Part shown: piece by piece, positions 15,533 to 63,549 of the stretch | Numbering within the stretch: position 1 is the first letter of the stretch | How the letters are laid out: every line of letters starts with the position of its first letter | Source of the DNA: Paraescarpia echinospica | Lineage: Eukaryota > Annelida > Polychaeta > Sabellida > Siboglinidae | DNA length: 64,000 nt | Direction: 5' to 3' | Assembly (NCBI GenBank): GCA_020002185.1 | Contig: CM034537.1 | Span: 8,409,047-8,473,046, forward strand | Translations under genes and position numbers: made by a program | The notes under the pieces: model-generated | The model's database searches: none | The model's input: the letters and a program-made list of their open reading frames with translations, nothing else | Told to the model about the DNA's origin: nothing

Positions 15533-16018
15533 CCTCTCTCTGCTGTCATCCCTGCCGATGTGACAACTTCCGCTCCTGACGATGTGACAATTTCTACTCA
15601 CGCAACCAATGTGACAACTGCCGCTCCTGTCGCCACTGGTCCGAACTTTACGCTTGAGTTTCCGGCGATGGAAATGAAGAAGACGATTGCACGTCACATA
15701 GCATGTGCCATCGTTGAACTCTCGAGACGACAGTGTCTCGCTTGCGAGATAGACGATCCTAGTCAATTTCATCACGATTGTATGTTACCTGATGACATTC
15801 TAATTTATATGCACTTTGACGAGGCTGTGGAGGCCATTAATTCGACTGCAGTGATGAAAGATTGGTTGTGTGTTTTGTTAGATGCGGGTTTGAAGTTATC
15901 CGACCTGACGTCCGATCACTTGTGTGCTATCGGGAGTTGGTTGCAAGAACCGTTTTCAGAGGAGTGGCGAAACAAATTAAAGCAAATTGTTCTGGCAGTA
16001 ATGGAGGATGATCTGTAA
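15533..16018 (+). CDS. Small CxxC/HxxxC protein of Polinton type, probably spliced
   Basis: The frame contains a compact cysteine-histidine motif 'CLACEIDDPSQFHHDC' around 15732-15779 and a helical C-terminus. I recall similar motifs in uncharacterised proteins of virus-like elements in aquatic animals, but the function is unknown. There is no ATG before 15668 and no nearby promoter. The frame is open back to an acceptor at 15531-15532 (pyrimidine tract 'tcctgtttcag'). It joins in phase 0 to the donor at 15106 inside the RPA-like gene, so the two products may share their N-terminus. The poly(A) signal AATAAA is at 16110-16115. A paralogous tail lies at 20041-20076. Confidence 0.55.
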   Translation, partial: PLSAVIPADVTTSAPDDVTISTHATNVTTAAPVATGPNFTLEFPAMEMKKTIARHIACAIVELSRRQCLACEIDDPSQFHHDCMLPDDILIYMHFDEAVEAINSTAVMKDWLCVLLDAGLKLSDLTSDHLCAIGSWLQEPFSEEWRNKLKQIVLAVMEDDL

Positions 16019-20360: not shown

Positions 20361-20439
20361 GGTTAGTCGGAGAAGACCGTTGCGGTTGAATGTTTTCCAA
20401 AATTCGGGGATCGACCAGCGCCCTCTTCTTTGTACTACT

Positions 20440-28238: not shown

Positions 28239-29147
28239 TCACAGATCGAGTCTCTGTGGTGGAACGGATGTCCGTCCCGATCGCATCACGGTCGTCACAG
28301 GTGGAGCCGCAGAAGTGCGCACCACGCTTGGTGAAGCCTGTCTCGGTTGCAATGCCGAACTTTGCTGTCTCTCGTGTGAAGACGAACGTGGTCGCGTCTC
28401 GTCGTCGTTCGTGCTCAATTCAGCGGTCTCCGTAGTCGCTCGGTCGGCACAAATGGGTTGTTCGTTCGGCGTCGGCACAATATGCCGCCGATTTCTACGC
28501 AGACAAGATGTCGGCGTCTGAACCACGTACGAGCGAGGTGAGCCTGCCTGGCCTACCACTGTACCCCCCGTTCTCGTGTCCTGCACCCACACTGGATCGC
28601 CGACGTGTAGGGGAGCCAGAGGTCGCGCACGGTGATGACGATCGTACGCCTCGGTCTGTCGTCGTTTTAGACTCACTCGTCGTTCCTGTAGATGTCTCGA
28701 TTCCTGCCAGCGAGGTTGCAGTGTCGACGCTAACACTGGGATCGAATTACGTAGCTGTCTACCCATCAGCAGCTCTGCTGGCGAATAGCCGCATTCAAGT
28801 GCTGTGGTACGATACGCCAACAAGGCGCCGTATGGATCCGTTGATTTTCGCAGTAAGTTCTTTACCGTCTGAACCGCGCGTTCTGACTTTCCGTTACTCT
28901 GCGGGAAACGAGGGCTGCTGGTAATGTGTACAAACCCTGTTCTCTCCGCGAAACGCGCAAACTCGTGTGACGCATACTGCGGGCCGTTATCGGAAACAAC
29001 CGTCTCCGGGACGCCATGCCGCGCGAAGATTGACCGCAGGTGGAGAATCACATCAGACACGCCCGTGTCGTCTAGCCTCGCTATCTCGACAAAACTCGAG
29101 TAATAGTCAACCACAAGTAGATACGTCGCCTTCTTGAAATGAAACAT
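28239..29147 (-). CDS. pol: Gypsy integrase part of pol
   Basis: This continues in the same frame as the upstream pol segment after one TGA codon (29172-29174). It contains the integrase catalytic core: the first Asp in 'LLVVDYYSSF', the second in 'VVSDNGPQYASHEF' and the Glu in 'SPRFPQSNGKSERAVQTV', followed by a C-terminal domain with a 'VGDPVWVQD' beta strand. Integrase inserts the cDNA copy into host DNA. The stop separates the zinc-binding domain from the catalytic core. The rest appears undamaged. Confidence 0.88.
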   Translation of the reverse strand: MFHFKKATYLLVVDYYSSFVEIARLDDTGVSDVILHLRSIFARHGVPETVVSDNGPQYASHEFARFAERTGFVHITSSPRFPQSNGKSERAVQTVKNLLRKSTDPYGALLAYRTTALECGYSPAELLMGRQLRNSIPVLASTLQPRWQESRHLQERRVSLKRRQTEAYDRHHRARPLAPLHVGDPVWVQDTRTGGTVVGQAGSPRSYVVQTPTSCLRRNRRHIVPTPNEQPICADRATTETAELSTNDDETRPRSSSHERQQSSALQPRQASPSVVRTSAAPPVTTVMRSGRTSVPPQRLDL

Positions 29148-29171
29148 GTCGGTGCCAACTTTCTGCCAAGG

Positions 29172-31481
29172 TCACAGATTCGGCTCTGACGCAATCATCA
29201 GCTCGACTGTGTTGCTACGCTCCATCGCACACGTAGTACAGTTCTTGACAAGCTCCTCAAGCTGCCTGCTGAGTCCGGGCCACCAGACCGATGACTGGGC
29301 CCGCGAGCGACACTTGACCACACCTTGATGGCCCTCGTGTAGCTTGTCTAACATAGTCAACCGCATCGACGCCGGTATGACGAGCCGTACCCCTTTTAGT
29401 AGCAGACCGTTATGAATTGTCAGTTCACTCTGGACTTGCCAATACGGTCGCAAAGACGATGGCAATGATGGATGGCTTGGCCAACCCTCTAGGCAATATC
29501 GCATCACCTGGCGACACACCTCATCGTCTTGCTGTCTAGCCATAATCTCGGCCAGACGCGTCTCGGTTGCCGGTATCTCACTCTCCACCAGGCTCGCATG
29601 CGCTGATACTTCGTCTGTGAATCGCGACTCCTCCGCCGTCAGTGGTCTCACTAGTGGAGCGCGCGACAACGCATCTGTAGTGTAGAGGTTCTTGCCGGGC
29701 ACATGACTGATCGTGTACGCGTACCGCATCAGTCGCATACGGAATCGCTGTATGCGTGGTGAAAGTTCATCTAGATTCTTCTTAGTGCTAAGAAGTGACA
29801 CCAGAGGTCGGTGGTCGGTCTCGACATGGAACTGCATTCCGTAGAGGTAGTCCGTACATCTCTCAAGAGCCCACGTAGTCGCCAGAGCCTCCTTCTCAAT
29901 CTTTGAGTAGCGCTGTTCCGTTGGCGTCATCGCCCTCGATGCGTACGCCACGGGTCGCATCGCGCCGTCGTTACTCTGCAGTAGCACCGCTCCCAGACCA
30001 AATGATGACGCATCTGCGGACACTGTCGTCGCTCTGTGTGGGTCGTACAGAGCCAGCACTGGAGTGTTGCTTAGGTCTGTCTTCACGGCATCAAACTCTC
30101 TCTGTTGCCTCTCACCCCATGTCCACAGATTTTCTTTCATAAGTAGATCACGTAGTGGCTGAGTTGTAGTCGATAAGTTGGCAGAAAACTTTCCTAGCTG
30201 TTTAGCCATACCCAGAAAGCGTCGAACGTCGCTCACGTTGATGGGCTGCTGCATCTCTGTGATGGCTCGCACCTTCGCAGGATCTGCCATGACCCCGTCA
30301 GCTGACACAATGTGACCAAGATACGAAATGCTCGACTTGGCAAAGTCGCACTTATCAAAGTTCAAAGTCACACCGTTGTCCTCGAGACGACGGAAGACAG
30401 CCCTCACCCTCGCGTCGTGCTCTTCTACTGAACTGCCGAAGATGATGACGTCGTCCATCAAACATAAAACACCAGGTAAATCATCGAGAATGCCACTCAT
30501 CCGCTTCTGGTAGTACTCGGGAGCCGAAGTGATTCCGAAAGGCAGCCTCTTGAAGTAATATCTTCCGAAAGGAGTAATGAATGTCGTCAATTCTTGCGAA
30601 GACTGGGCTAGTGGGATCTGCCAGAAGCCTGAGTTGGCGTCCAACTTAGTGAAGACCTTCGCGCCCGCCAGCCTACCGAGTGTCTGATCGACTGAAGGAA
30701 GGTCGTGTTTCTCCCTCCTTACACTCTCGTTCAACTTCGTTAGGTCGACACAAATGCGAACTTTGTGTGTCTCCCTCTGCCCCTCAACGTCCGAAGAAGG
30801 GACAGCCTTCGGTTTCGCCACCACCACCATGCCAGCACACCAGTCCGTCGGGCTTTCAATCCTGCGGATGACGTCAAGATTTTCCATTCTCTGAAGTTCC
30901 TTCCTGACGACCCCTAGCAACGGTATCGAGACTCGTCTCGGTGTAGTCAATGCGAACGGCTTCGCGTCAGACCGTAGCTTGATTTCGTACTCGCCATTCA
31001 TCTTCCCTAGGCCTCCAAATAGCTTCGGGTTGTCGCGTCTGTAGACGTCTGCTGCATCGACCGAGTCAACAGCAACACGTCTGACAAGATCAAGAGACTC
31101 GCACACTCTCCGACTAAGCAGTGACCTCGTCGGGCTATTGACGACGTACACGTCTTCGTGAATGACGACACCGTTTCGTGACAGCTTGCCACTGAACTTG
31201 CCCATGGTTTTTAGGACGCCGTCGTTCGCGCCTACAAGTTTTCTTGTCGACCTGTCGAGTCGCGGACTACCTGCTTTCTTGTAGTCGTTGGCAGAGATCA
31301 CAGTAACGTCGGCCCCAGTGTCCAACTTGAAGCAAACGTTCGTGCGAAGGCGAGTGTCCATTGCCTCCAAAACAATGGTGGACGTCCACGGTTGGTCGTC
31401 GCCCTTCGTCACTTCGCCGAGGAAAGCAAACTCCGACTCAGTGTGCTTAGTACTGCGTCTACAGATCTCGTTGACCTGCAT
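29172..31481 (-). CDS. pol: Gypsy protease-RT-RNase H and integrase N-terminus
   Basis: 769 residues in order: aspartic protease (DTGA at residues 54-57), reverse transcriptase (LDANSGFWQIPL, LPFGITSAPE, catalytic LMDD in 'GVLCLMDDVIIFG'), RNase H (starting 'TTVSADASSFGLGAVLL'), and the integrase zinc domain H-x4-H ... C-x2-C ('LHEGHQGVV' ... 'CTTCAME'). The motif spelling fits the Mag group. The frame overlaps gag by 73 bases in the -1 frame, so it is probably made by ribosomal frameshifting. It ends at an in-frame TGA at 29172, after which the same frame continues into the integrase core. Confidence 0.92.
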   Translation of the reverse strand: MQVNEICRRSTKHTESEFAFLGEVTKGDDQPWTSTIVLEAMDTRLRTNVCFKLDTGADVTVISANDYKKAGSPRLDRSTRKLVGANDGVLKTMGKFSGKLSRNGVVIHEDVYVVNSPTRSLLSRRVCESLDLVRRVAVDSVDAADVYRRDNPKLFGGLGKMNGEYEIKLRSDAKPFALTTPRRVSIPLLGVVRKELQRMENLDVIRRIESPTDWCAGMVVVAKPKAVPSSDVEGQRETHKVRICVDLTKLNESVRREKHDLPSVDQTLGRLAGAKVFTKLDANSGFWQIPLAQSSQELTTFITPFGRYYFKRLPFGITSAPEYYQKRMSGILDDLPGVLCLMDDVIIFGSSVEEHDARVRAVFRRLEDNGVTLNFDKCDFAKSSISYLGHIVSADGVMADPAKVRAITEMQQPINVSDVRRFLGMAKQLGKFSANLSTTTQPLRDLLMKENLWTWGERQQREFDAVKTDLSNTPVLALYDPHRATTVSADASSFGLGAVLLQSNDGAMRPVAYASRAMTPTEQRYSKIEKEALATTWALERCTDYLYGMQFHVETDHRPLVSLLSTKKNLDELSPRIQRFRMRLMRYAYTISHVPGKNLYTTDALSRAPLVRPLTAEESRFTDEVSAHASLVESEIPATETRLAEIMARQQDDEVCRQVMRYCLEGWPSHPSLPSSLRPYWQVQSELTIHNGLLLKGVRLVIPASMRLTMLDKLHEGHQGVVKCRSRAQSSVWWPGLSRQLEELVKNCTTCAMERSNTVELMIASEPNL

Positions 31482-32254
31482 ACAGCCCCAAAATGTCCGA
31501 CTTTCTTACACTTGAAGCATGCTGCCTCACGCGCTGGGCACACTGACTTCTGATGAGCCGGAGATCTCCCACAACAGTCACACTTCCGCGTCGAAGTTGA
31601 CTGAGACTGAGCTTTCAACTTCTGTTTCGACTGGCTGGGTTTGTACGACATCCTCGTCCGCACAAAGTCAACATTGCCGCCTGTCTTCGCCGCAAAGTTG
31701 TTCCTCAACAGGGTCTGCTCTTTCCTTGCAGCCTCGTTCTGGCGTGCCATGTCGATTGCCTTCTTCAGTGTCAATGTCGCGTCCATCTGCAGTTTCAACG
31801 ACAACGCCACATCAGTGATGCCAACGACAATACGATCCCTGATCATTTCATCGTTGAGCGCGCCGTACTCACAATGCTCCGCCAGGCAGAACAACGCAGT
31901 GATGAAACTGTCAACCATATCGCCCTCCTCTTGGGAACGTCGGTTGAATTTAGCCCGCTCGAAAATCGCATTGCGTCGAACTACGAAGTGCGCATCAAAC
32001 TTGCCTTTGACGACCGCATACACATTCCGTTGTTCATCTGTCAAGCCGATGCCTGCCATGATATCGTCCGCCACGTCACCCATCGCGTAGATAAGTGCGT
32101 TGACTTGAACTGTCTCGGCTTTCTCGTCCAGGGCTGACGCTGAACGAAAGCGATCAAACCGTCGAATCCATTTAGGCCATTCATTAGGTTTGATGAAGCA
32201 GAAAGCATCAGGCGGGGCGATTTGGAATGTTTGGGCAATGACTGAGTCAAACAA
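31409..32254 (-). CDS. gag: Gypsy Gag with CCHC zinc knuckle
   Basis: 281 residues from the ATG at 32254. It has an N-terminal capsid-like region (PNEWPKWIRRFDRFR, typical of Mag-type Gag), then a basic linker, a C-x2-C-containing segment and a zinc knuckle C-x2-C-x4-H-x4-C (CFKCKKVGHFGAVC) near the end. Gag packages the element RNA. Its end overlaps the pol frame, as expected for frameshifting. The frame is intact. Confidence 0.9.
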   Translation of the reverse strand: MFDSVIAQTFQIAPPDAFCFIKPNEWPKWIRRFDRFRSASALDEKAETVQVNALIYAMGDVADDIMAGIGLTDEQRNVYAVVKGKFDAHFVVRRNAIFERAKFNRRSQEEGDMVDSFITALFCLAEHCEYGALNDEMIRDRIVVGITDVALSLKLQMDATLTLKKAIDMARQNEAARKEQTLLRNNFAAKTGGNVDFVRTRMSYKPSQSKQKLKAQSQSTSTRKCDCCGRSPAHQKSVCPAREAACFKCKKVGHFGAVCRSTRSVDAVLSTLSRSLLSSAK

Positions 32255-32339
32255 GCAAAAATAACGTACCTCGTGGTAGATGTATGCAAAATTACTTATG
32301 CAACAACATCACCGTATTCATCTTAAAATTCTGACACCA

Positions 32340-40509: not shown

Positions 40510-41640
40510 GTATAATCTGGCATAACTTGATAAGAGATGGAGCGCAGAGTTCTAGTGATTAAAGTGTCAGACCCTTATACGAGAGATGGAGCGCAGAGGA
40601 CTAGTGATTAAAGCGTCAGACCCTTATACGAGAGATGTAGCGCAGAGGTGTAGTGATTAAAGCATCGGACCCTTATATGAGAGATGGAGTGCAGCGGTCT
40701 AGTGATTAAAGCGTCAGACTCTTATACGAGAGATGGAGTGCAGAGGACTAGTGATTAAAGCGTCAGACCCTTATACGAGAGATGGAGTGCAGTGGTCTAG
40801 TGATTAAAGCGTCAGACCCTTATATGAGAGATGTAGTGCAGAGGACTAGTGATTAAAGCGTCAGACCCTTATATGAGAGATGTAGCGCAGAGGACTAGTG
40901 ATTAAAGCGTCAGACCCTTATATGAGAGATGTAGCGCAGAGGACTAGTGATTAAAGCGTCAGACCCTTATACAAGAGATGTAGCGCAGAGGACTAGTGAT
41001 TAAAGCGTCAGACCCTTATACAAGAGATGTAGCGCAGAGGACTAGTGATTAAAGCGTCAGACCCTTATACGAGAGATGTAGTGCAGAGGACTAGTGATTA
41101 AAGCGTCAGACCCTTATATGAGAGATGTAGCACAGAGGACTAGTGATTAAAGCGTCAGACCCTTATACGAGAGATGTAGCGCAGAGGACTAGTGATTAAA
41201 GCATCGGACCCTTATATGAGAGATGGAGCGCAGAGTTCTAGTGATTAAAGTGTCAGACCCTTATACGAGAGATGGAGCGCAGAGGACTAGTGATTAAAGC
41301 GTCAGACCCTTATACGAGAGATGGAGCGCAGAGTTCTAGTGATTAAAGTGTCAGACCCTTATATGAGAGATGGAGCGCAGAGGACTAGTGATTAAAGCGT
41401 CAGACCCTTATATGAGAGATGTAGCGCAGAGGACTAGTGATCAAAGCGTCAGACCCTTATATGAGAGATGGAGCGCAGAGGACTAGTGATTAAAGCGTCA
41501 GACCCTTATACGAGAGATGTAGCGCAGAGGAGTAGTGATTAAAGCGTCAGACCCTTATACGAGAGATGTAGCGCAGAGGTGTAGTGATTAAAGCATCGGA
41601 CCCTTATATGAGAGATGGAGTGCAGCGGTCTAGTGATTAA
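40510..41640 (+). repeat. 49-bp tandem array with tRNA-like A-box motif
   Basis: About 23 copies of a 49-bp unit, 'gagagatgtagcgcagagga' plus 'ctagtgattaaagcgtcaga' plus 'cccttatac'. 'tagcgcagaggac' resembles a pol III A box, so the unit may derive from the head of a tRNA-related SINE. Array continues at 43574-43660 after an inserted element. Confidence 0.9.
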
Positions 41641-47749: not shown

Positions 47750-47880
47750 TGCTGAACTGTCCTCCTGGCAGCTGAACTGTCCTCCTGGCAGCTGAACTGC
47801 CCTCCTGGTTGCTGAACTGTCCTCCTGGCAGCTAAACTGTCCTCCTGGTTGCTGAACTGTCCTCCTGGCAGCTGGTCACA
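47750..47880. repeat. 20-bp coding-type tandem repeat
   Basis: About six copies of 'ctgaactgtcctcctgg(c/t)(a/t)g' alternate in a 20-bp unit within the pseudogene, after its PGG-coding site. Confidence 0.85.
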
Positions 47881-49706
47881 TAACTGATGCTCCAGCACAA
47901 TCACAAAATGGTGCATCATTATTTCCTGTGCCTCAGTTGTTAGTGTATCTAGCATCTCATTGCCACTGTCTTTGAATAATTCCACATACATTTCGTCCTG
48001 GTAGGCTACAATATCTGGAAATAATGTCTTCTTCATACAGGAGAGGAGTGACATCATCTGCCCACAGTATTTCTCTTTCATTGCGTCTATCTGATGGTTG
48101 AGTTGCACGTACTCTTCGTTACAATTGACTAGTCGCCAAAATGGTCCGGTGACCAACTTGTCTACTATGCCTAACGTCCTGCAGTCCACAATGTGTACGA
48201 GCTCACTGTGGTCCAGATGTACCGCTTGCAGCAGCCGGTTTGGTCATCCATAATGTTCAAAGAAACGGTGGAAATTGTCTCGGTGATAATAAACTGCAGC
48301 TCCATTAAAAAAAAAGAACATTAAATCTGTTTCCACGGAATGCGGTGTGTTAATATTTATTGTCGAGGAATGCTGCAAACTGATATATTACCCCAGCTTC
48401 CTCACTGCCTTAGGTCTCAAATGCTTTACAAACAGTCCACACAGTTCTCACCGTTCTATTCTCCTTATCTCTAACAATTCTTGTAGATTGTTTGCGAATC
48501 TCTTGTGTCATCATCAATGCTAACCCTTCAAATTCTTGCAGTCCTGCATTGGCTTCTTCAGCCATGCCAACTAAGAAGTGGAGATGGCACTTGAAACTGT
48601 TGAGGTGTGTCAGTTTAGTTTGTGCATTTGGTGCTAATTTCTCCCTTCAATTCACCAAGATGTCATCAACACATGCATTGGTCGCTGTCAGTCATTGTAT
48701 TGATGAAGCTGAAGACTGATTGTCCTAGCGTTCTGTCAGTTTCAGGTCCCATCTGTAGTGTGTCAGCTAAATCTTGAAAAGCATCTTTAATAAACGATGC
48801 ATATCTTTCTGCTTCACCAGAGTCCATGTCAAAAAGAAAGTACATATGAACGTTTGTTTGTAGTTATTTGCATCGATCCATATTTATGCCCCATTTTGCT
48901 TGTTTCGTAGTACTAGTAATGCAGAGTTGTGTTGTGTTGCTGAAGCATATCTTTAGTGGCCTGAAGTTCAGCTAAGAATGTGGCTTCCACAAACATCCTG
49001 CTGGGAAGGGAGTCATTGGGAAGGGAGTCACTGAGAAGTCTTCCAACTTCTCTATTCCACCCAGTTTGTTTACCACTACTCTTCTGGCATCCGCAGTGTT
49101 CCGGCGCCAAGTGCCCATGTTCAGCAGTTCCATGTATACTTCACGAACATTGTTTGTGTACTTTCCATCCTGGAATATTAAAATTTCACGATCTTCAAGA
49201 AACTTAACTATATCCTGTAGATCTCTGTTTTCAGTGGTCAATGATTTAATTTTCTGGTAACTTATTCAGTTCACTTTCAATATTGTTCATTTTAGCTTGT
49301 ACATCTCCATCAGTCTTGCATTTGTAATATGACAGGCGGCATTGACATTTTCTTTTGCACTCCAAGACTTTGTTTATAATTTTTTCCAAATTGCTGCATC
49401 GTTCTGAAGCAGAGTCCAACTCTTTTTCCAAGTCATCAGCTGCTGCTGTTTCATGACGCTGGTTCCCTGCGCTTGAATGATCTGATCTCTCTGACTCAGC
49501 TTTTTGTTAACATTTCAAACACACATTGCGATCGATTCATTGATTGAAAGTATGAACTAATCAATCGTCGATAAAAATTGGCGTGGATTACATGCATGAG
49601 AGGACGTAGGTTTGAAAGGCAATGAGACATGTCCACACTTTGTAGTGTCCTCATTCTCACTGGCTGTTGTGTGCTTTAACGCCGGTGTCTCTCTACTGCT
49701 GCAGAC

Positions 49707-52700
49707 ATGGTGCATGCTTTGATTGATGCTGCCTACGACAAAGAGCCACATGTACAAGAGATCATCTGTAACTCCCTATGTGAGGTCGGCAAGAAACGAC
49801 CAAACCTTGTCCTGTCTTCCTGCCATGGCTACCTCCTCAAACACTCCAAGGTACGTACACGCAGGGCTGATGATCAACTAACGCAGGACTTCCACAGACC
49901 CTCACGAACTAGAATTTCTCTCCAGTATGTACTCTAGTTAACAACATGTCCTGAAGCAAGCAGATGGGTTATGGAAAGACTAATTTCATATAGACAAGTG
50001 ACACGTTTCAGCTGGGACAAGGTCACCGCACTGTCACACTCACCTGCATGGAGAGGGTAGTGAAAGAGTCGTCAGAAAGTCTTGACAAGAGACAAGTGGT
50101 TGATATCATCAAACAGGCATCCAGTGAATTGACAGCTTCAAAGGCAAGTCACACTGCGACCATAAGATCATTTTGAATTAATACATCCTGGTTAAGTGAT
50201 TCATTTAATAAGGCAAGGTTTCTGGATGCTTATTCATGTGGTTAATCAGTCCAACAACTTTGTCATAAAGTGGAATTTATTATAGTTAGTTGCTTCAGGT
50301 ATGTTATGTTGTTAGTTGTAGTCGATTCTTGCTGTCTCTCTACTTGCTGCAATTCAACAAATTAAACAAACGGGTAAGAATATGTTTTAAAGGCAAATAC
50401 ATATAGGTTGGTTTTCCTGCCCTTGCCGTCTTAATTGACATCAGCTGTCAGTAGAAGCTAGGTGTGATCTTTGCACTAACACCAACATGATACTGACTGT
50501 CATCGTAATAGTTGTTATCAAAATACACCTTAAGTTGCAACTGTAATATAGGCCAAAACATCTACTTGTGATAATATACTCTTACACAGTTATCAGAATT
50601 ATAATAAAACATTTTTTAATTAACGTGTTGTGAAACAAGATGTTTCCGTTTGTAGTTTTTTATATTATTGTATATTTTGTGTGTGTAGTTTACCTTCTTT
50701 TTTTCCATTTTCATTTGGAAATAAGGAATGTATGAAGTAATTGTGAGCAAAGAGTATATGTAAACTTTGAGTGTTATGATGTTGTAAGTTGAGAACTAGT
50801 TTGTCTTGCAGGATGTTGTGCCTCTGTGGCAGTCAGCTGCTAGCGGCCTCCTGGTGGCCATCGGGTGTCGGCACTGTCACGAGGTGATGGCCGAACTACT
50901 GCAAAAGTTCCAGCCTGGCGTCTTGCCACATTACATGGTGGTGCAGACACTCGCAAACCTGGCCATAGCAAATGGTAGGTCATCATCCGATATGCAGCAG
51001 CCATGATAGGTCATGTGAACCTAGCTTGCAACAGCCATGGTAAGTCATGTGATCCCAGCTTGCTGCAGCCATGGTAGGTCATGTGATCCCAGCTTGCAGT
51101 AGCCATGGTAGGTCATGTGATCCCAGCTTGCAACAGCCATGGTAGGTCATGTGATCCCAGCTAGCAGCAGCCATGATAGGTTAAGAGATCCTAGCTTGAA
51201 GCAGTCATGGTAGGTCATGTGATCCCAGCTTGCAGCAGCCATGGTAGGTCATGTGATCCCAGCTTGAAGCAGCCATGGTAGGTCATGTTATATTTAATAC
51301 TTTATAACATTTTTAGTAATAAAGATTAAAGCATGATTTATAAAATTTTGGTGTACTTTGCTGAGATCGAGAATTTGGGCATTTTAATTAGACTACTTCC
51401 CCAACTTTGGTGTGACACTAGGCTGCCACTACAAGTGTGTTGTGGATAACATCACATCACTGTATTGTGATTCTCTCATTTGGTTTCATTGTATGACATG
51501 ATGCTGTTGGTTTCAGTGTACGACATGGTGCTGTTTGGTTTCAGTGTACGACATGGTGCCGTTTGGTTTCAGTGTACGACATTGTGCCGTTTGGTTTCAG
51601 TGTATGGCATGGTGCCATTTGGTTTCAATGTACAACATGGTGCTGTTTGATTTCAGTGTATAACATGGTGCCATTTGGTTTCAATGTACAACATGGTGCT
51701 GTTTGGTTTCGGTATATGGCATAGTGCCATTTGGTTTCAATGTACAACATGGTGCTGTTTGGTTTCAATGTATGACATGGTACTGTTTGGTTTCAGTGTA
51801 GAAGATGGAGCTGTTTGGTTTCAGTGTATGACATGGTACTGTTTGGTTTCAGTGTAGAAGATGGAGTTGTTTGGTTTCAGTGTATGGCATGGTGCCATTT
51901 GGTTTCAATGTACAACATGGTGCTGTTTGGTTTCAGTGTATAACATGGTGCTGTTTGGTTTCAGTGTATGACATGGTGCTGTTTGGTTTCAGTGTATAAC
52001 ATGGTGCTGTTTGGTTTCAGTGTATGACACGGTGCTGTTTGGTTTCAGTGTATGACATGGTGCCGTTCCTCAAGGTTGTCCTGGGAACCACGTTGTCTGT
52101 GATGGGAATGGCGAAGCAAGACAACATGAAGTGGATCTTCTCCTCAGGTACTTGTTTCTACTTGCATCAGGTACTTGTTTCTACTCACACCAGGTACTTG
52201 TTTCTACTCACATCAGGTACTTTTTACTCACATCAGATCCTTCTTTCTACTCATATCAGGTACTTCTTTCTACTCACATTAGGTTCTTGTTTCTACTTGC
52301 ATCAGGTTCTTGTTTCTATTTGCATCAGGTACTTTCTACTCACATCAGGTACTTTCTACTCACATCAGGTACTTCTTTTTACTCATATGAGGTACTTCTT
52401 TCTACTCACATCAGGTATTTCTTTGTACATGCATCAGGTACTTGTTTCTACTTGTATCAGGTACTTGTTTCTACTCACATCAGTTACTTCTTTCTACTTG
52501 CATCAGGTACTTGTTTTTACTTGCATCAGGTACTTGTTTCTTCTTGCATCAGGTACTTGTTTCTACTCACATCAGGTACTTTTTACTCACATCAGATCCT
52601 TCTTTCTACTCATATGAGGTACTTCTTTCTACTCACATCAGGTTCTTGTTTCTACTTGCATCAGGTTCTTGTTTCTATTTGCATCAGGTACTTGTTTCTA

Positions 52701-55700
52701 CTCACATCAGTTACTTCTTTCTATTTGCATCACTACTTATTTCTACTTGCATCAATTACTTGTTTCTACTTGCATCAGGTACTTGTTTCTACTCACATCA
52801 GGAATCTAATGATACTACGTCATACACAGTGTTACTGTAGCAGTAAACACCATTGAAGCAAAATTCTGAACTTGGGTAAATTCCAGAAGTAAACACTTAT
52901 GAAATTCTTTTATTTGAAGCTATTGCCAAGTTCAGCGAAGCAATAATGGACTACGCAGCAAACCTTGAAACAGCTCCAGACCCATCCGTGCGCAAAGAGG
53001 TTTATTCTCAAGAAATGGACGCAGCGTACGATATTCTCTTCACACTTTGGCTGCAGTCAAAGGAGGTGAAGGTAAGCTGTGGCTACAAGGTGAAGGTAAG
53101 CTGTGGCTACAAGGTGAAGGTAAGCTGTGGCTACAAGGTGAAGGTAAGCTGTGGCTACAGCCCCAAGAAAATCAGCATGAAAAGCTAAGTTGATTTTCTC
53201 AAATAATTTGATGTTATAATTTTGATAGTTGTTGAACATATACAATTATTGCTGAAAGTTTAATTATTTAATGTCACACCGTTAATGATTTGTTCTTTTG
53301 GCAGTACGATGCTAACCATAAGTTGTTGATTTTATTATATGAATAACAGTAGTGTTATTATATGAAAATGAGTTATGTTGCAGTTGAAGCTGATCGTTGT
53401 GGAGGCTCTAGGTCGCATGTCTTACATCATGAGTCGGACTAAGTTGGACGAACAGTTTCCTCGTCTGCTTCCAGCCATCCTCGGCCTCTACCGCAAGAAC
53501 CTAGAACCCTACAATATCACCCTGGTGAGATACGCTTTACCTTAGTGTCACTTCTCCTGCGGTGTTGTTTTCCCCTTTCATCATTTGTAACTGCTGCAGT
53601 GTTTAGTTCTTACTTTTTTGTAACTTCTGCAGTGTTGAGTTCTCCTTACATTTCCTTCCTTGTCTTGTAACACCTGAAGTATATATTGTATTGAATGTAT
53701 TGCTATCAGTGTGAATGCACCCACTATGTATGTTCCGTCAGTGTCATTGTGTGTGCATGTTGTATGTACTGTTCACATTCCATCAGCAATCCTCCATGCA
53801 TTTGCAAATTAAAATTAAAATCTCTACTTGTTGCATAGCTTAAATGTACGTCATCACACATTATTCACATGACTTAAGATGCAACAATAGCAGCATGCAG
53901 TGCACTCAGTTATTGACAAAGCAATGCTTGTGTCAACAGGGACTTTCTCTGCTACTTGACGCCATGGTGCAAAATGGCAGCTCAGTTGTTGGTGTGCAGC
54001 TAGACAACCTTCTGTCTGTCCTCTTTCCACTGGTAAGTCAAACAACACCTAGACAACTTACTGTCTGTCCTCTTTCCACTGGTAAGTCAAACAACACCTA
54101 GACAACCTACTGTCTGTCCTCTTTCCACTGGTAAGTCAAACAACACCTAGACAACCTACTGTCTGTCCTCTTTCCACTGGTAAGTCAAACAACACCTAGA
54201 CAACCTACTGTCTGTTCTCTTTCCACTGGTAAGTCAAACAACACCTAGACAACCTATGTCTGTCCTCTTTCCACTGGTAAGTCAAACAACACCTAGACAA
54301 CCTACTGACAGTGCCCTTTCCACTGGTACGTCAAACAACACCTAGACAACCTACTGACCGTACTCTTCCCGCTGGTAAGTCAAACAACACCTAGACAACC
54401 TACTGACAGTGCCCTTTCCACTGGTAAGTCAAACAACACCTAGACAACCTGCTGACAGTGCCCTTTCCACTGGTAAGTCAAACAACACCTAGACAACCTA
54501 CTGACAGTGCCCTTTCCACTGGTAAGTCAAACAACACCTAGACAACCTGCTGACAGTGCTCTTTCCACTGGTAACTCAAACAACACCTAGACAACCTGCT
54601 GACAGTGCTCTTTCCACTGGTAAGTCAAACAACACCTAGACAACCTGCTGACAGTGCTCTTTCCACTGGTAAGTCAAACAACTAGACAACCTGCTGACAG
54701 TGCTCTTTCCACTGGTAAGTCAAACAACACCTAGACAACCTGCTGTCTGTGCACATTGTGTGCATGCAAGCAGTTATATACACACTGTATATAGGAACAT
54801 TTATTGATAGGATTATTACTGATGAATACAGCAGACAAAAAAAGGGGTTTTGAAGGATACCATAATCAATACAAGTTTGACATGTTAAACAAGAATATGA
54901 TGAATAACTATCATTTCCAGAGACAACAGAAGGTAGTGTTAGTTTTTCAACAAATTGATGTTTCTGTTTATTCACAATATATTTTATTGATGCTGTCTTG
55001 TTTATTTTTTGACTTGCCAGATTTGTCAGCCCGTGGACTACAGTGTGCCAATGACAGTGAAGAACCACAATGAAGTGCTGCGTTGTTTCGCCATCCTTGG
55101 TGAGCAAACATTCAACACTTCTAGTTGCTTGTTGTGAAGTTAGGGTAGGAAGAGTTTATTAAGAGCCTAGTACACAAGTCGACGGCAACGGCTAAACCTC
55201 GACGGCAAAGTGGAAAACTGCGAGCAGAGCCTAGTACACATAGCCGGGTAATCTTCAATGGTATATGCAAATTGGTCACATGAGCAGTTTGTCAGCATTA
55301 TAAAAGATGGCATTGAATGAAAGAAGAAAACAGCATAGCACAGTTTATTTGTATTGTTTCAAACATGAACTGACGGGTGCTTCAACAAAAATCAAGTCAA
55401 GGCAGTTGTGTTTGTACACACTATATTTATACTGACATCAAAACTTTTGTTGCATTATGTCTATTAATTATCACTTATCAGTCATGTCCAGCTTGAATCC
55501 TATCACTACGACCTGCCAAACAGCCAACTTCTTCTTGGAGTTTTTATAAATGGGATGGGATGGAGTGTAATTATAGTGACACTCGCCGCAAATTCATTAT
55601 CCTTTACCATTTTAACTTGCACCCATGTAACTATGTATTGCTCACTTATTTTTTTATGCCTTATAATAATATGTTCCTCCTGCAAAGAATTGAATGTTGA

Positions 55701-58700
55701 GCTTCTAATTAAATATAATATTCACTGGATTCCTGAAAATCAAATTACGTAAATTTAAACAAAACTATAAACAATTGAATCTGCAATTTTATGTTGTGTT
55801 TACAGCGCTATATTGGAACATGTGCAATTTTACAACACAAAAACATCAGCACTGATTGGTCAGAGTAAATCTTGGTTTGGCAGTTTTTCGAAAATCTCTT
55901 GTTTCGATACTCGACAGTTTGTCTTTAGGCAGTTTTGTTGTCGAGCGGTTTGTCGTTGTATGTATACTAGGCTCTGTGTAATTCCAATTAGACCGGTTTT
56001 TATTTTGCCGCTTGCCATTGAGGCTTGTTGTTGCCAATGACATATATAGAATGGATATGGTAGATACTAAACACATCTTTTGGATGTGTATTCTATTACT
56101 GAAATTGTTAGTTTTTGCTATATTATTAATGTGTCATGTGATTGTACTTTTGAGGCTCTAGAACTTAACTTTTTGAATTCAGTGACTACATCATTCAAAG
56201 TAATCTGTGTTTGTCTGCACAGCCTAAACATCTGGAGAAAGCATTCTGACAGATGATAGACTGTTGGTTGTGTTTGTTTGTACATTTGTTGCTCAACAGA
56301 CAATGGCTGTGTGTTTCAGTGGTGCCTTTCTCTGACCGTCTGGTCAACTTCCTGCTGCAGAAGTTGGAGCCAAACAATGACAAGACAAAGATGGCCGTCC
56401 TGGCGATCCTCAGACACCTCATCAACTCAACAGGTCCCTTTGTCTGAGCTGTCTACTTACTTGTTTATTTGTGTCATCCACAGAAACCTCATCAACTCGG
56501 CAGGTCACTTTGTCTGACCTGTCAACTTGCTTGTTTACTTGAATCATCCTCAGACACCTCATCAACCCAGCAGGTCACTTTGTCTGACCTATTACTTACT
56601 TGTTTACTTGTGTCACCACAGACACCTCATCAACTCAGCAGGGCACTTTGAACTACTTATTTGTGCCATTCTCAGATATGTCACCAACTCAACAGGTCAC
56701 TTTGTCTCACCTGCTAGTTACCCGTTTACTTGTGTCATCCACAGACACCTTATCAGCTCAGCAGGCCACTTTGTCTGACCTACTTACTGTCTACTTCCTT
56801 GTTAACTTGTGTCATCCTCAGACACCTCATCAACTCAGCAGTTCACTTCGTCTGACATGTCTACTTGTATATTTGTGTTATCCATAGATACCTCATCAAC
56901 TCAGCAGGTCAATTTGACCTACTTGTTTACTTGTGTCATTCTCAGACATGTCACCAACTCAACAGGTCACTTTGTGTGACCTGCTACTTGTTTATTTGTG
57001 TCATCCACAAACACCTCATCAGCTCATCAGGCCACTTTGTCTGACCTACTTACTCCTTTACTTAAGTCATCCTCAGACATCTCATCAACTCAGCAGGTCA
57101 CTTTGTCTGACCTACTTGTTTAATTGTGCCATCCTCAGGCACTTCATCAAATCAATAGGTCACTTTGTCTGACCTACTTACTTGTTTGACTTGTGTCATC
57201 CACAGACACTTCATCAACTCCGCAGGTCACTTTGTCTGACATGTCTACTTACTTGTATCATCCACAGAAAACTCATCAACTCAACAGGTCACAGGACTAC
57301 TTCACACAAACCAAACTAATATATAGTTTGCCTTACTACAGAGGATCCTTCTCTCCTTCAATTGCTAGCGGTAGACTTGATTATTGCAATTTCCTGGGTG
57401 GTAGAGGGTGGGGTACGCATGCGCCGCAGACATGAAGCCTTGCTGGGGAGTCCGTGGATTTTTGGAGCTCCCCAGAGATTTTATAAAAAAAACTAAAAAA
57501 TGGTGCGTTCTGAGGGATGTTTTAACCTATAATCTTGAATATAGAGGGGAAGGTAAACATGTTTATTACACTACTTGTAAATGTAGTAATCATGACAATA
57601 GTCAGTAATCATGATTGCTTCATCATGTTGAGGTGTGGTTTCCACTTGACCACTAGTACTCTGACTGAAGTTAAGACGACTAAATGATGTTGCTGCAAAT
57701 CATAGATTTTGTGGATTATAAGTGACTTTGTGGTGTCATTTCGTGCTGCTCGCCAAATATATAAAATTGGCACACAAAATAGCTACGAGGCGGCATGTAG
57801 ACATTTTTTTTGCATATTTGAGGTGAGGCGGCATAGAATAAAGGTGAGGCAGCATAGAATAAAGGTGAGGCAGCATAGCATAAAGGTGAGGCAGCATAGA
57901 ATAAAGGTGAGGCAGCATAGAATAAAGGTTAGGCAGCATAGAATAAAGGTGAGGCAGCATAAAATAAAGGTGAGGCAGCATAGAATAAAGGTTAGGCAGC
58001 ATAGAATAAAGGTGAGGCAGCATAAAATAAAGGTGAGGCAGCCCTCCATGCTCGTCATAATAATAATGAGACATACCAGGGGAAACACTGTAATGTAATG
58101 CAAAGCTTCAAAGTGTTCCAATTGTTTGGCAGGACTAGTTACACAATCTCCTCATTTTTCTCCCTCTAAGCCTCTTCTAAAGTCTCCGCACTGGCTTCCT
58201 CTCCAATGTTGTAATGTTTTCTAAACTTATACTGTTATCTGTCAGGCACTTTCGTCTAAGCAACTAGCATATTTAAGCTCACTGTTTCCAGTAAGAATAG
58301 AAGCTATATTAATTTAGTTGTCATCTCCAGAGTTGAAAGAAACATTGGCACTATGGCTTTCTCGGATGCCACACTTTGAAGTTCACTCCATGTCAGTGTT
58401 AAGTCAACATGAAACAGTTTAAATGTTCCTGTCCTGTGAATATTAATCTTAGCCCTGCTTACCTGCTGTAGCTCCCTAACACATTCATTCAGATGTAGAC
58501 AACTTTAACATTGAATGTCAATTTTCAAGTTTGTTTATCCCTTTTGTGTGTCTGAGCTCCAGCATATGAAGATGCAGGATTATTATTCCCAACACAACAA
58601 CTCGTCATGTCCTGTCTGTGACCTGTCTCTTGTCCTGTTGTAGGCTCTCATATAGAAGACAAACATGCCCTCATCATGTCCTGTCTGTGACCTGTCTCTT

Positions 58701-61700
58701 GTCCTGTTGTAGACTCATATAGAAGACAAACATGCCCTCATCATGTCCTGTCTGTGACCTGTCTCTTGTCCTGTTGTAGGCTCTCATATAGAAGACAAAC
58801 ATGCCCTCGTCATGTCCTGTCTGTGACCTGTCTCTTGTCCTGTTGTAGGCTCTCATATAGAAGACAAACATGCCCTCGTCATGTCCTGTCTGTGACCTGT
58901 CTCTTGTCCTGTTGTAGGCTCTCATATAGAAGACAAACATGCCCTCGTCATGTCCTGTCTGTGACCTGTCTCTTGTCCTGTTGTAGGCTCTCATATAGAA
59001 GACAAACAGGCCCTCGTCATGTCCTGTCTGTGACCTGTCTCTTGTCCTGTTGTAGGCTCTCATATAGAAGACAAACATGCCCTCGTCATGTCCTGTCTGT
59101 GACTTGTCTCTTGTCCTGTTGTAGGCTCTCATATAGAAGACAAACATGCCCTCGTCATGTCCTGTCTGTGACCTGTCTCTTGTCCTGTTGTAGGCTCTCA
59201 TATAGAAGACAAACATGCCCTCGTCATGTCCTCTCTGTGACCTGTCTCTTGTCCTGTTGTAGGCTCTCATATAGAAGACAAACATGCCCTCGTCATGTCC
59301 TGTCTGTGACCTGTCTCTTGTCCTGTTGTAGGCGCTCATATAGAAGACAAACATGCCCTCGTCATGTCCTGTCTGTGACCTGTCTCTTGTCCTGTTGTAG
59401 GCTCTCATATAGAAGACAAACATGCCCTCATCATATCCTGTCTGTGACCTGTCCCTTGTCCTGTTGTAGGCTCTCATATAGAAGACAAACATGCCCTCGT
59501 CATGTCCTGTCTGTGTGACCTGTCTCTTGTCCTGTTGTAGGCTCTCATATAGAAGACAAACATGCCCTCGTCATGTCCTGTCTGTGTGACCTGTCTCTTG
59601 TCCTGTTGTAGGCTCTCATATAGAAGACAAACATGCCCTCGTAATGTCCTGTCTGTGACCTGTCACTTGTCCTGTTGTAGGCTCTCATATAGAAGACAAA
59701 CATGCCCTCGTCATGTCCTGTCTGTGATCTGTCTCTTGTCCTGTTGTAGGCTCTCATATAGAAAACAAACATGCCCTCGTCATGTCCTGTCTGTGACCTG
59801 TCTCTTGTCATGTTGTAGGCTCTCATATAGAAGATAAACATGCCCTCAACATGTCCTGTCTGTGACCTGTCTCTTGTCCTGTTGTAGGCCCTCATATAGA
59901 GGACAAACAGGCCCACATCATGTCCTGTCTGTGACCTGTCTCCTGTCCTGTTGTAGGCCCACATATAGAGGACAAACAGGCCCTCATCATGTCCTGTCTG
60001 TGACCTGTCTCCTGTCCTGTTGTAGGCCCTCATATAGAGGACAAACAGGCCCTCATCATGTCTGGCCTGAAAGCTTTGCTTCCTGAAACCAGTAACAAGG
60101 TCGGTTGGCTCTCTCTCATTTCACTTGTTTGTATCTATTTTTAAAATAAAATTGTCTTTGAATCCCTTTCAGACATTTCCCAGTTGTACACTTTTTAAAT
60201 TTCGATTTATAGTAGATTTCATGATAGGTGTGTTTAAAAACTGTCAGGTGACATCTGAAGTGTGGAGCCTATCAGTTAATATAATAAATGATTGTTCTAT
60301 TACTGATGTTGCAGTATATTCTTTACACAATGATGAACAGTTAATACTGCGTGACTATGTATTAGACTTCTTCCTTACTCACAGGTGAAGAAGGTTCTTG
60401 CACAAACAGTGATTGCGATGGCTCATCACAGCTACCTGGAAATGGAGGGCGGGCATCTCTTCATCGAGTTCATAGTGCGCCAGTGTGCCCTTCCATCTGA
60501 CCCACAGGTGGGGCATCTAAGGCACTAATTACCAACACAGAGTTCATAGTGCATCAGTGCGCCCTTCCATCAGACCCACAGGTGGGGTTTCTAAGGCACT
60601 AATTACCAACACAGAGTTCATAGTGCATCAGTGTGCCCTGCCATCTGACCCACAGGTGGGGCGTCTAAGGCACTAATTGCCAACAGAGTTCATAGTGCAT
60701 CAGTGTGCCCTTCCATCTGACCCACAGGTGGGGGGTGTAAGGCACTAATTACCAACACAGAGTTCATAGTGCAACAGTGTGCCCTTCCATCTGACCCACA
60801 GGTGGGGCGTCTAAAGCACTAATTACCAACACAGAGTTCATAGTGCATCAGTGTGCCCTGCCATCTGACCCACAGGTGGGGCGTCTAAGGCACTAATTAC
60901 CAACAGAGTTCATAGTGCATCAGTGTGCTCTTCCATCTGACCCACAGGTGGGGGGTGTAAAGCACTCATTACCAACACAGAGTTCATAGTGCATCAGTGT
61001 GCCCTTCCATCTGACCCACAAGCACTCATTACCAACACAGAGTTCGTAGTGCATACGTTTGCCCTTCCATCTGACCCACAGGTTGGGGGTGTAAAGCACT
61101 CGTTACCAACACAAGAGTTCATAGTGTGTCAGTGCACCCTTCCATCTGACACACAGGTGGGGTTTCTAAGGCACTTATTACAAACACAGAGTTCATAGTG
61201 TGTCAGTGTGCCCTTCCATCTGACCCACAGGTGGGGGGTGTAAAGCACTCATTACCAACAAAGAGTTCATAGTGTGTCAGTGTGCCCTTCCATCTGACCC
61301 ACAGGTGGGGGGTGTAAAGCACTCATTACCAACTCAGAGTTCATAGTGCATCAGTGCGCCCTTCCATCTGACCCACAGGTGGGGCGTCTAAGGCACTCAT
61401 TACAAACACACAGAATTCATACTCGTCGCCGACACTGGAGTAGCTTATTCCTCCCATATATAGTAATCCCTCTCTTCAGCGGACACATCTGTATCCAAGC
61501 ATAAGTGTCCCGACATAGCAGGTGTCCACTCATCAGAGGGACAGGGATCTTAGACTTAGTGCCGGAGTTCAGACCAGTACAACCGACACATGGTAAAGAT
61601 GTGACAATATGTCAACGCATTAACTGACAGGAATTAAGCAATATATATACATGTTCATTATCACTGTGATATATTAAAAAATAAACAGTTGGTCATGAAG

Positions 61701-63549
61701 TCATATCGTCCACCCGACTCCCTCTGTGTTGATGTGAGATTTTCCTCAACTGCGTACTGGTCACTCACTCACTGCCACTAGCCTACACAACGGTATCGGC
61801 GCGGCGTTGCAGTGGTAATTGCTGCGCGTATGGCAGCATTCAACCAAAAACGTTGAACAAAACATCTCCGTTACAACATTTTATAAATTGGTATTCTCGA
61901 ACGATTTAGATATTCTTTACCTAAAATACTTCGTAAGTAATTTGCAAGTTGACGATTTTGGCTGCCCCCTACCGACTAAAATAATAACCTGGAAATGATC
62001 AACGGAATATTTAAATCAGTTGCTACATGCAACGTGACCATTAATTAAATATTAAAAACGGTAATGGGTACAATCGTTAATTGTTTCACAACATTTTTGA
62101 TCCAATTTCGAAAGATTAATTAATGCACAAATTGTGTGTCACTTGATAATACATTCCACCGTTTCATATGTTGGCGACCAGTTCATCTTTTCCAGGCACT
62201 GGTAATATTTGCCGTTTGGCGTAGCGCAACATAATTTGATGAAGCTTCTTTATTATTTCACAACAGTTTAGGCTTAATGTTGGGCTGGCTACATTGGAAA
62301 CAATTGATGGAACCTTTTATACATCCTATTTGTGAATCTTAATTGCAATTTACAAGATGAAAAGCCAAAGCTCTGACTGGGGCTGGAGGCGCAAATGGGG
62401 AATCCATCATGGCATCACCTGTGGCAAACATGATTGATAACAGCATAAAATATTAATGATACCTTCCTCCACATTCACTCTGCCTAAAGTTTACAGAGCA
62501 TAATCAAAGGAACTCTAAGTAGTTTGGACAAACACAACGATTACAGCAAGGAAGACAAGCTTGTTGTTAGGGGTACACGTGTACTTGGTGTTACCATTGA
62601 CGCACACCGAGCTGTATGTCCGCCATTTCCTAAACAAATTCAGCAACAAATCTTCGAATTAATGAATACTGTCCGTCTTAGGAGGGACATACAACCAAAA
62701 TTTACATGGCAAAACGGTCCGTACATTGACAAACTGTCCCGACATAGGGGGTGTCCCCTCATCAGAGGGTCCGCTGAAGAGAGGGACTACTGTAGTCACA
62801 GTCTATGTATATATTACACTGTTCATACAACAGGTACCAGTGATACCTCACACACCTGTTCTTTATTTCATAATAAAATGTCAAGCATGCAGGTGGCGGT
62901 GTGGTCTGTGTTGCTAGGGACGACGACCCATTGACTCTGACTACGTGAGCAATGACGCGTTGAGGTCAATGTGTGATGACGTGCTTCTGTTATTGTCAAC
63001 CACCGTTGACAACATGCAGTGTGTAAGTATCACTGCTCTTTTCTTGCTTCATATTCTGCCGACACTTAACATGTTGGTAGCTATTTACCATGTCGCCGTA
63101 GGTCATGTGAACTCGCTAGGTGGCACTGATAAACCAGTATATGATGCTAACTCTACTGAAGACAACTGTCTGATAAGGTTGTGTCTGTATTCACTCAGTG
63201 TTTACAATGAGCGTACATGCCCCAGCTGCAGACTTGGTGGAATATAACCATTTTTATTCATATGAATTTGCATCAAACTCTAAATATCGTGACAAAGTGT
63301 GTGTTTTCTTGTGTACATGTATGTTTCAATGACAAGCTTGTAGCTGTCAAAGAACAGATTTCTGACAAATCACAGTACATTTTTTTGATGTGTTATTGTG
63401 CCAGGTGCTGTGGCCTTATCTGTTGGAGTGTGTCGTGCCCCAGTGCTACACTGGTGCCATGGCTACCGTGTGCCGCACCATTGCCCACATTGCAGGGAAG
63501 AAACGGCAAGAGAAGGCCCACGATTACCTCGTTGACTTCCAACATCAAA
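49707..63549 (+). CDS. MROH1: MROH1 (maestro HEAT-like repeat protein 1), partial
   Basis: Thirteen exons with conserved phases: 49705-49850, 50012-50143, 50812-50974, 52049-52147, 52920-53071, 53384-53524, 53940-54032, 55021-55099, 56320-56433, 60026-60099, 60385-60507, 62918-63022 and 63405-63549. The product starts MVHALIDAAYDKEPHVQE and shows the paired helices of HEAT repeats. Blocks typical of MROH1 include YDMVPFLKVVLGT, APDPSVRKEVY, LWLQSKEVK, MSYIMSR, NHNEVLRCFAIL, LRHLINST, VIAMAHHSYLE and VLWPYLLE. MROH1 is a large, mostly helical cytosolic protein of the Maestro family. Only about the N-terminal 500 residues are here. The exon at 49705 begins after an acceptor, so an upstream exon exists. 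The intron after 50143 uses a GC donor. Exon 62918 has a weak acceptor and its start is least sure. The last exon ends in phase 1, and the gene continues beyond the window. Confidence 0.9.
50971..51295 (+). repeat. Minisatellite copying the intron donor (about 36 bp)
   Basis: Starts at the exon end 'aatg|gtaggt'. Some eight copies of 'catggtaggtcatgtgatcc' plus 'cagcttgcagcagc' follow, most keeping ATG|GTAGGT. Confidence 0.9.
51480..52048 (+). repeat. Minisatellite copying the intron acceptor (28 bp)
   Basis: About twenty copies of 'tgtatgacatggtgctgttt' plus 'ggtttcag'. The last copy is the real acceptor (AG at 52047-52048) and the first codons of the exon (tgtatgacatggtgccg). Confidence 0.92.
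52141..52805 (+). repeat. Minisatellite copying the intron donor (23 bp)
   Basis: About 28 copies of 'catcaggtacttgtttctac' and variants begin at the real junction 'tcctcag|gtacttg' (exon end 52147). Long open frames here are repeat artefacts. Confidence 0.92.
53066..53165 (+). repeat. 24-bp tandem repeat copying the donor
   Basis: Four copies of 'gtgaaggtaagctgtggcta' plus 'caag'. The first contains the exon end GTGAAG|GTAAGC at 53071. The unit is a multiple of three with no stop, so use of a downstream copy would add eight residues per copy. Confidence 0.92.
54000..54765 (+). repeat. 49-bp minisatellite copying exon end and donor
   Basis: About fifteen copies. Each contains 'ctagacaacct', a 'ctctttccactg' exon end and the donor GTAAGTCAAAC. 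The real junction is at 54032/54033. Confidence 0.93.
55150..56040 (+). mobile_element. Decayed Harbinger element in an MROH1 intron
   Basis: Begins 'gagcctagtacacaagtcgacggcaa' and ends in degenerate 'ttgtcgttgtatgtatactaggctc' and 'gccattgaggcttgttgttgcc'. Internal fragments match the element at 3328-4332 ('atatttatactgacatc', 'ctattaattatcac'). Confidence 0.65.
56400..57300 (+). repeat. Minisatellite copying exon end and donor (about 65-75 bp)
   Basis: About thirteen copies of 'cctcagacacctcatcaactcagcaggtcactttgtctgacct' type, each repeating the exon end CTCAT-CAACTCA-ACAG|GT. The real junction is at 56433/56434. (No single quoted stretch is exact; copies vary.). Confidence 0.9.
57825..58045 (+). 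repeat. 21-bp minisatellite
   Basis: About ten copies of 'gtgaggcagcatagaataaa' plus 'g'. It is in the same intron but not at a splice junction. The unit is a multiple of three, which explains the long open frames on both strands. Confidence 0.93.
58575..60062 (+). repeat. 69-bp minisatellite copying the acceptor and exon start
   Basis: About 21 copies, each with 'gtcctgttgtag' (acceptor) and 'ctctcatatagaagacaaac' (exon start). The true exon begins at 60026. The unit is 23 codons, so frames stay open on both strands, but a TGA in the exon frame of each copy makes the upstream acceptors nonproductive. Confidence 0.93.
60455..61412 (+). repeat. Minisatellite copying exon end and donor (about 70 bp)
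   Basis: About thirteen copies of 'gagttcatagtgcatcagtg', 'tgcccttccatctgacccac' and 'aggtgggg', then 'ctaaggcactaattaccaac'. Each repeats the last about 35 bases of the exon and its donor. Real junction 60507/60508. Confidence 0.93.
61413..62917. other. MROH1 intron sequence with no recognised feature
   Basis: AT-rich. Phrases around 61440-61550 recur near 62740-62790 ('tgtcccgacata', 'cctcatcagaggg'), a partial duplication. No gene other than the exon that follows. Confidence 0.5.

Follow-up and report, generated by a model that had tools for sequence, protein, structure and literature searches.

Amphioxus genes can carry tandem, minisatellite-like copies of an exon-intron boundary, which may lie on either side of an exon. 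These structures, named mirages, have been described in Adh3 and in the globin genes BflGb6 and BflGb9, and PGBD5 and troponin C contain comparable ones (PMC3087553, PMC3902484). According to the available parts of these reports, many copies retain the AG or GT, regular splicing is undisturbed as judged from Adh3 data and globin reverse transcription PCR, and copy numbers are 3 and 6 in BflGb6 and 2 to 7 in PGBD5 (PMC3087553, PMC3902484). We analyzed a 64,000-nucleotide stretch of the annelid tubeworm Paraescarpia echinospica (assembly GCA_020002185.1, contig CM034537.1, positions 8,409,047 to 8,473,046 of the forward strand; hereafter the window), in which introns of the MROH1 gene carry tandem arrays whose units include a splice junction. 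As described, these arrays belong to the mirage kind, since they are also tandem, minisatellite-like and boundary-spanning at the 5' or 3' side, with the sites mostly kept. They differ in their annelid host, in affecting several junctions per gene and both ends of an intron, and in reaching up to about 40 copies. Furthermore, their excess at junctions was measured in genes not picked for arrays, whereas the amphioxus accounts, in their available parts, concern single genes and few copies.

Large intronic tandem arrays are also known from another annelid: earthworm metallothionein genes contain large minisatellites in their first introns, with units of about 180 bp (PMC12783039). Those arrays lie in the interior of intron 1, and the available part of that report describes no units at splice junctions. 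The Rogers model of intron gain likewise invokes tandem duplication around splice signals (PMC3087553, PMC4974935, as far as their available text goes), but the tubeworm case shows no new intron, and where both ends of an intron are arrayed their units are unrelated. Searches of the open-licence literature showed splice-junction mirages in amphioxus only and no annelid report, an absence that is no proof that none has been published. As far as found, the kind of array is known but the phylum is new for it, and neither such a density nor a measured excess at junctions was seen reported.

The translation of the final MROH1 model was free of stops and equal to the protein taken as query. This protein showed 91% identity, without gaps, to MROH1 of the vent tubeworm Ridgeia piscesae, and a Lamellibrachia satsuma MROH1 record was 83% identical over just 16% of the reconstructed protein. 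GT-AG borders were present in 11 of the 12 introns; the remaining one, intron 2, starts with a GC donor at position 50144 (AAAG/GCAAGT).

Arrays were located by Tandem Repeats Finder (TRF), inspection of the sequence and the gene model (Table 1). Tandem arrays that include the junction were found at 8 of the 24 MROH1 splice junctions (six donors and two acceptors, in 6 of the 12 introns), and arrays made up 5,759 of the 12,279 intron bases. All eight reach into the intron, with the terminal copy sitting in the exon, and introns 3 and 9 carry a different array at each end. The nine units, including that of the single off-junction array, showed no similarity surviving correction for 36 pairs (best shuffle p 0.015), indicating separate origins. 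Mean divergence between copies ranged from 0 to 0.31 by array, and variants were common to blocks of copies; concerted evolution inside the array, sparing the boundary copy, is one mark of mirages, and length instability between haplotypes or tissues is another. Membership of the junction was weakest at the intron 3 donor, where unit and exon share 3 bases only and 26 of 5000 shuffles equalled this. At the intron 4 donor, the exon side alone, with 4 shared bases, was not significant (284/5000 shuffles), and the intron-side match begins at the GT. A first-pass annotation of the window, made from the letters alone, had listed eight affected junctions in six introns, two introns with different end arrays, separately arisen units and unit lengths that proved correct within a few bases; all of this was confirmed, as was its statement that most copies keep GT or AG (107 of 127, authentic ones counted). 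Its description of the units as junction-spanning holds for the eight junctions, less strongly than claimed at the donors of introns 3 and 4. It had taken tandem splice-site duplication for the closest known case and overlooked the amphioxus mirages.

Table 1. Positions of the MROH1 exons, the tandem arrays of MROH1 and the arrays of one KIF3A intron. Positions are those of the window, except for KIF3A (locus L048).
Feature	Position	Strand	Description
MROH1 segment	49704..63549	+	13 exons modelled; 474/521 identity to Ridgeia piscesae MROH1
MROH1 exons 1-5	49704-49850 (start not refined), 50012-50143, 50812-50974, 52049-52147, 52920-53071		
MROH1 exons 6-9	53384-53524, 53940-54032, 55021-55099, 56320-56433		
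MROH1 exons 10-13	60026-60099, 60385-60507, 62918-63022, 63405-63549		
Intron 3 donor array	50972..51288	+	Unit 34; 10 copies with that at the junction included, 8 with GT; 3 exonic bases
Intron 3 acceptor array	51479..52067	+	Unit 28; 21 copies, 14 with AG; 19 exonic bases
Intron 4 donor array	52144..52802	+	Unit 23; 29 copies, 23 with GT; 4 exonic bases
Intron 5 donor array	53064..53159	+	Unit 24; 4 identical copies, 4 with GT; 8 exonic bases
Intron 7 donor array	54000..54752	+	Unit 49; 15 copies, 15 with GT; 33 exonic bases
Intron 9 donor array	56406..57289	+	Unit 66-70; 14 copies, 10 with GT; 28 exonic bases
Intron 9 interior array	57821..58042	+	Unit 21 (AGGTGAGGCAGCATAGAATAA); off-junction, the single miss among nine
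Intron 9 acceptor array	58601..60063	+	Unit 69; 21 copies, 21 with AG; 37-38 exonic bases
Intron 11 donor array	60466..61415	+	Unit 74; 13 copies, 12 with GT; 42 exonic bases
KIF3A intron, donor end	L048:8408-9101		About 18 copies of exon end plus donor (37 bp)
KIF3A intron, acceptor end	L048:9140-9802		Several 74-bp copies of acceptor plus exon start

The unit of the interior array in intron 9 opens with a donor-like AGGTGAGG, no modelled exon is nearby, and the array may have been left behind by a junction since lost. An array of 20-bp units at 47751-47874 was weighed as a possible ninth case and rejected, as its surroundings look coding on the minus strand and show no visible splice junction; a Pfam scan of five open reading frames (ORFs) gave only matches below the curated cut-offs.

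Among MROH1 arrays with a TRF score of at least 100, 8 of 9 overlapped a junction, against 1.12 expected when founding segments were placed uniformly over positions not wholly exonic (p 1.8e-7). The excess persisted when a tenth, low-scoring array was added (8/10, p 6e-7), when at least 8 exonic bases were demanded (6/9, p 5e-5; 6/10, p 9e-5) and when TRF borders alone were used (7/9, p 6e-6). Because MROH1 had been picked for its odd look, other genes provide less biased evidence. Therefore, we counted arrays in four control genes of the same genome: PRPF8, CLTC (clathrin heavy chain), KIF3A and a myosin II. PRPF8 and CLTC were found with human protein queries and chosen before their DNA was seen. 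KIF3A was the top kinesin domain match, fetched unseen and then recognised from the peptide of its array, after which the KIF3A protein served as the reference; the myosin II was found by domain match, and array-free parts of it (L008, L032) had been seen before the gene was counted. The models comprised 42 introns for PRPF8, 26 for CLTC, 9 for KIF3A and an approximate 18 for the myosin II, whose exons are tblastn stretches with unrefined borders. The CLTC model starts at residue 171, and its region contains 856 N. Left out of the count were one array of PRPF8 that lies beyond its coding end (56194-56457), one of KIF3A that falls between its two modelled parts (15551-15831) and, also in KIF3A, the stretch between residues 377 and 414.

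In the four control genes together, 23 of 50 arrays overlapped a junction, against 4.56 expected (p 3.7e-12), and 23 of 190 junctions, about one in eight, were arrayed. The excess was strongest in PRPF8 (15/27 arrays, p 3e-9; 15/84 junctions), followed by CLTC (6/17 arrays, p 7e-4; 6/52 junctions) and KIF3A (2/4 arrays, p 0.06; 2/18 junctions). In intron 6 of PRPF8, a 71-bp unit is repeated 13.7 times at the donor and a 64-bp unit 40 times at the acceptor; arrays at both ends were also present in intron 18 of PRPF8 and in one intron of KIF3A. The first 21 residues of the exon concerned in KIF3A gave tblastn matches in five more copies, with parts in two others. The first-pass annotation had proposed that some process acts repeatedly at splice junctions, to be given up if arrays genome-wide overlapped junctions no more than chance predicts. 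Our count, made in a few genes, gave no such refutation: it bears out the proposal for PRPF8, CLTC and KIF3A, although myosin genes had no junction array where examined. Selection tolerating only junction-preserving expansions, which had also been offered, cannot alone account for the excess, because wholly intronic arrays should be equally tolerated.

Each arrayed MROH1 junction presents 4 to 29 copies and 4 to 23 intact sites, and among intronic copies alone 99 of 119 keep the GT or AG. A lax count over 30 junction arrays gave 356/410, a value that is approximate only because a one-base shift was accepted. Pairing with the 5' end of U1 was scored in silico and was at least as strong as that of the authentic donor in 56 of the 66 GT-bearing MROH1 decoy donors; the pyrimidine content of decoy and authentic acceptors was about equal (0.54 and 0.55; 0.74 and 0.75). 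By these crude measures the decoys are about as strong as the authentic sites, indicating that the right site cannot be selected by sequence strength. If used, 91 of the 99 intact decoys would cause a frameshift or a stop, and the other eight would lengthen the exon with the frame kept open (five in intron 4 and three in intron 5, where any copy gives such an extension). Across the outermost sites, good protein alignments were obtained for MROH1, PRPF8 and CLTC. In accord with use of the outermost copy, the Ridgeia protein has no additional residues at any arrayed border, a comparison made by protein alignment and valid at the protein level only. The splice site is probably chosen by position, at the first donor and the last acceptor, as judged from the continuity of the proteins there, and this matches the expectation of exon definition.

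Beyond ...SLFSFIK, the C-terminal end of the Ridgeia MROH1 protein seems to run past a donor into repeated peptide. This end suggests that an array lies beside a donor in Ridgeia, too.

We consider it likely, with good confidence, that these arrays are mirage-like minisatellites, common at the splice junctions of a number of genes in this genome, which begin as border-straddling duplications, grow intronward and leave the outermost site in use. In this course of events, a short segment (19-85 bp) that straddles an exon-intron border by chance would be duplicated in tandem. The array would then grow into the intron, presumably by slippage or unequal exchange, while one copy stays in the exon at the outer end. 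Splicing would proceed from the outermost copy, most simply through exon definition, and the inner decoys would be removed with the intron, making the arrays tolerable. The excess would mean that arrays are born more often at junctions or last longer there.

Properties of the units were compared over 31 pooled junction arrays (15 from PRPF8, 6 from CLTC, 2 from KIF3A and 8 from MROH1). The position of the junction inside the unit was uniform (Kolmogorov-Smirnov p 0.50), and the unit length was a multiple of three in only 6 arrays, as expected for random border-overlapping founders whose copies are spliced out and not translated. PRPF8, CLTC and MROH1 contained no wholly exonic array, and more than 42 exonic bases were present in only 1 of the 31 units, against 5.3 expected; selection may remove longer exonic pieces because they could pass for exons. 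At the intron 11 donor, 8 of 12 copies encode H, as in Ridgeia, and the local exon encodes R; at the intron 9 donor, 8 of 13 copies encode A, as in Ridgeia, and the local exon encodes T. These copies seem to predate the change in the exon.

Several points weigh against this reading. The expectation depends on the assumption of uniformly placed founding segments, and we infer the use of the first donor and the last acceptor from protein continuity. The counted myosin II had no array on a junction (0/2 arrays, p 1; 0/36 junctions), and no junction array was present at the focal exon of any of the 30 best myosin exon loci. The 30 loci are not 30 independent tests, as several lie near each other on one contig and are paralogue-like, and two lie in the counted myosin gene. 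Array prevalence at junctions clearly differs strongly from gene to gene. In the intron 9 acceptor array the relation to Ridgeia is reversed, the exon agreeing with Ridgeia and only a few copies doing so (P in 2/20, Q in 3/20, I in 4/20). Finally, with crude unit cutting that missed some copies, divergence from the exon copy showed no overall trend along the array (rho above 0 in 14 of 24 junction arrays, p 0.47).

At two of these 30 myosin loci, L006 (3056-3177) and L029 (1-1239), array units resemble parts of neighbouring myosin exons by eye, outside the focal exon. Many myosin-head matches were clustered at 15.5-16.0 Mb of contig C14 and at 21.2-21.4 Mb of contig C11, and look like a tandem expansion.

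The divergence data also bear on whether arrays survive longer at junctions without being born there more often. If arrays arose everywhere, purifying selection on the copy at the exon end could let junction arrays regrow and last longer, an explanation that we consider serious though unlikely. It agrees with the intron 9 acceptor and intron 7 donor arrays of MROH1, in which the most exon-like copies lie nearest the exon, and with the lower divergence of the first two copies in 15 of 26 arrays. Over the 24 junction arrays, neither the trend nor the comparison of the first two copies with the rest (p 0.12) was significant, although crude cutting makes this a weak test; the ends of wholly intronic arrays looked alike, with the first two copies lower in 17 of 26. 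We slightly prefer a birth bias related to the junction over a survival bias, but the data do not tell the two apart.

Retention of GT or AG in most intronic copies could mean that the repeated sites are selected, either for boosting recruitment of the splicing machinery or as recursive splice sites. The dinucleotide was the best-conserved pair in the intron 7 donor and intron 9 acceptor arrays and was above the mean at the intron 11 donor (0.92 vs 0.85, rank 20 of 64). In the other four of the seven arrays tested, it was kept no better, or worse, than other pairs (intron 3 donor 0.78/0.90, intron 4 donor 0.79/0.80, intron 9 donor 0.69/0.80, intron 3 acceptor 0.65/0.84). CAG/GT occurs within the units of introns 4, 9 and 11, whereas the remaining three MROH1 donor units show no suitable AG/GT by eye. 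These figures give at most weak support to selection for many splice sites, and we regard such a function as improbable.

Minisatellites might also simply be abundant genome-wide, with a striking gene picked from among many and its arrays tolerated. Introns here are indeed dense in arrays (16.8 of 47.9 kb in PRPF8 and 14.2 of 39.7 kb in CLTC), and the myosin loci, with no junction array at a focal exon, would fit, but the excess in four genes not picked for arrays leaves this account quite improbable. A still fainter prospect is that the arrays are left over from, or are stages in, the gain of introns through tandem duplication, a route suggested for the amphioxus globins. The model was put forward for mirages (PMC3087553, in its available text); one duplicated exonic segment would give like ends, however, and no common-segment origin was found for introns 3 and 9, whose end arrays are mutually unrelated. 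An assembly or polymerase artefact is very hard to credit, even though the arrays are known from the assembly alone and the four identical copies of intron 5 are uninformative, because copies elsewhere diverge, with variants common to blocks of them, and those of two arrays mostly keep a Ridgeia residue absent from the local exon.

Elsewhere in the window, long ORFs of 310, 777 and 299 aa lie on the minus strand at 28239-32308; by eye, they look like a retroelement of the Ty3 type that encodes reverse transcriptase and integrase. A 49-bp unit is repeated in 22.6 copies at 40533-41640, and its sequence is presumably similar to the head of a short interspersed element derived from a tRNA. About 700 TAC-like triplets follow one another at 20433-22536. 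An Rfam scan at gathering scores and a tRNA scan of the window gave no matches. A pattern matched 13 stretches of bacterial and archaeal contigs, none of which encoded a relative; viral contigs gave no match to one unit pattern.

Tentatively, and as a possibility that we hold open more than we expect it, tandem duplication in vestimentiferan tubeworms may be aimed at exon-intron borders genome-wide, with the junction acting as a hotspot through its DNA, its chromatin or co-transcriptional splicing, and the amphioxus mirages may be the same process in another phylum. If true genome-wide, this would turn an oddity of a few amphioxus genes into a general feature of an annelid genome. The arrays would offer a natural experiment on splice-site choice, in which near-identical sites lie tens of bases apart and position, not strength, must decide. 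Gene prediction and read mapping in such genomes are likely to be disturbed by them. They also lend themselves to studying whether mutation is concentrated at splice junctions and in what way introns or extensions of exons newly arise.

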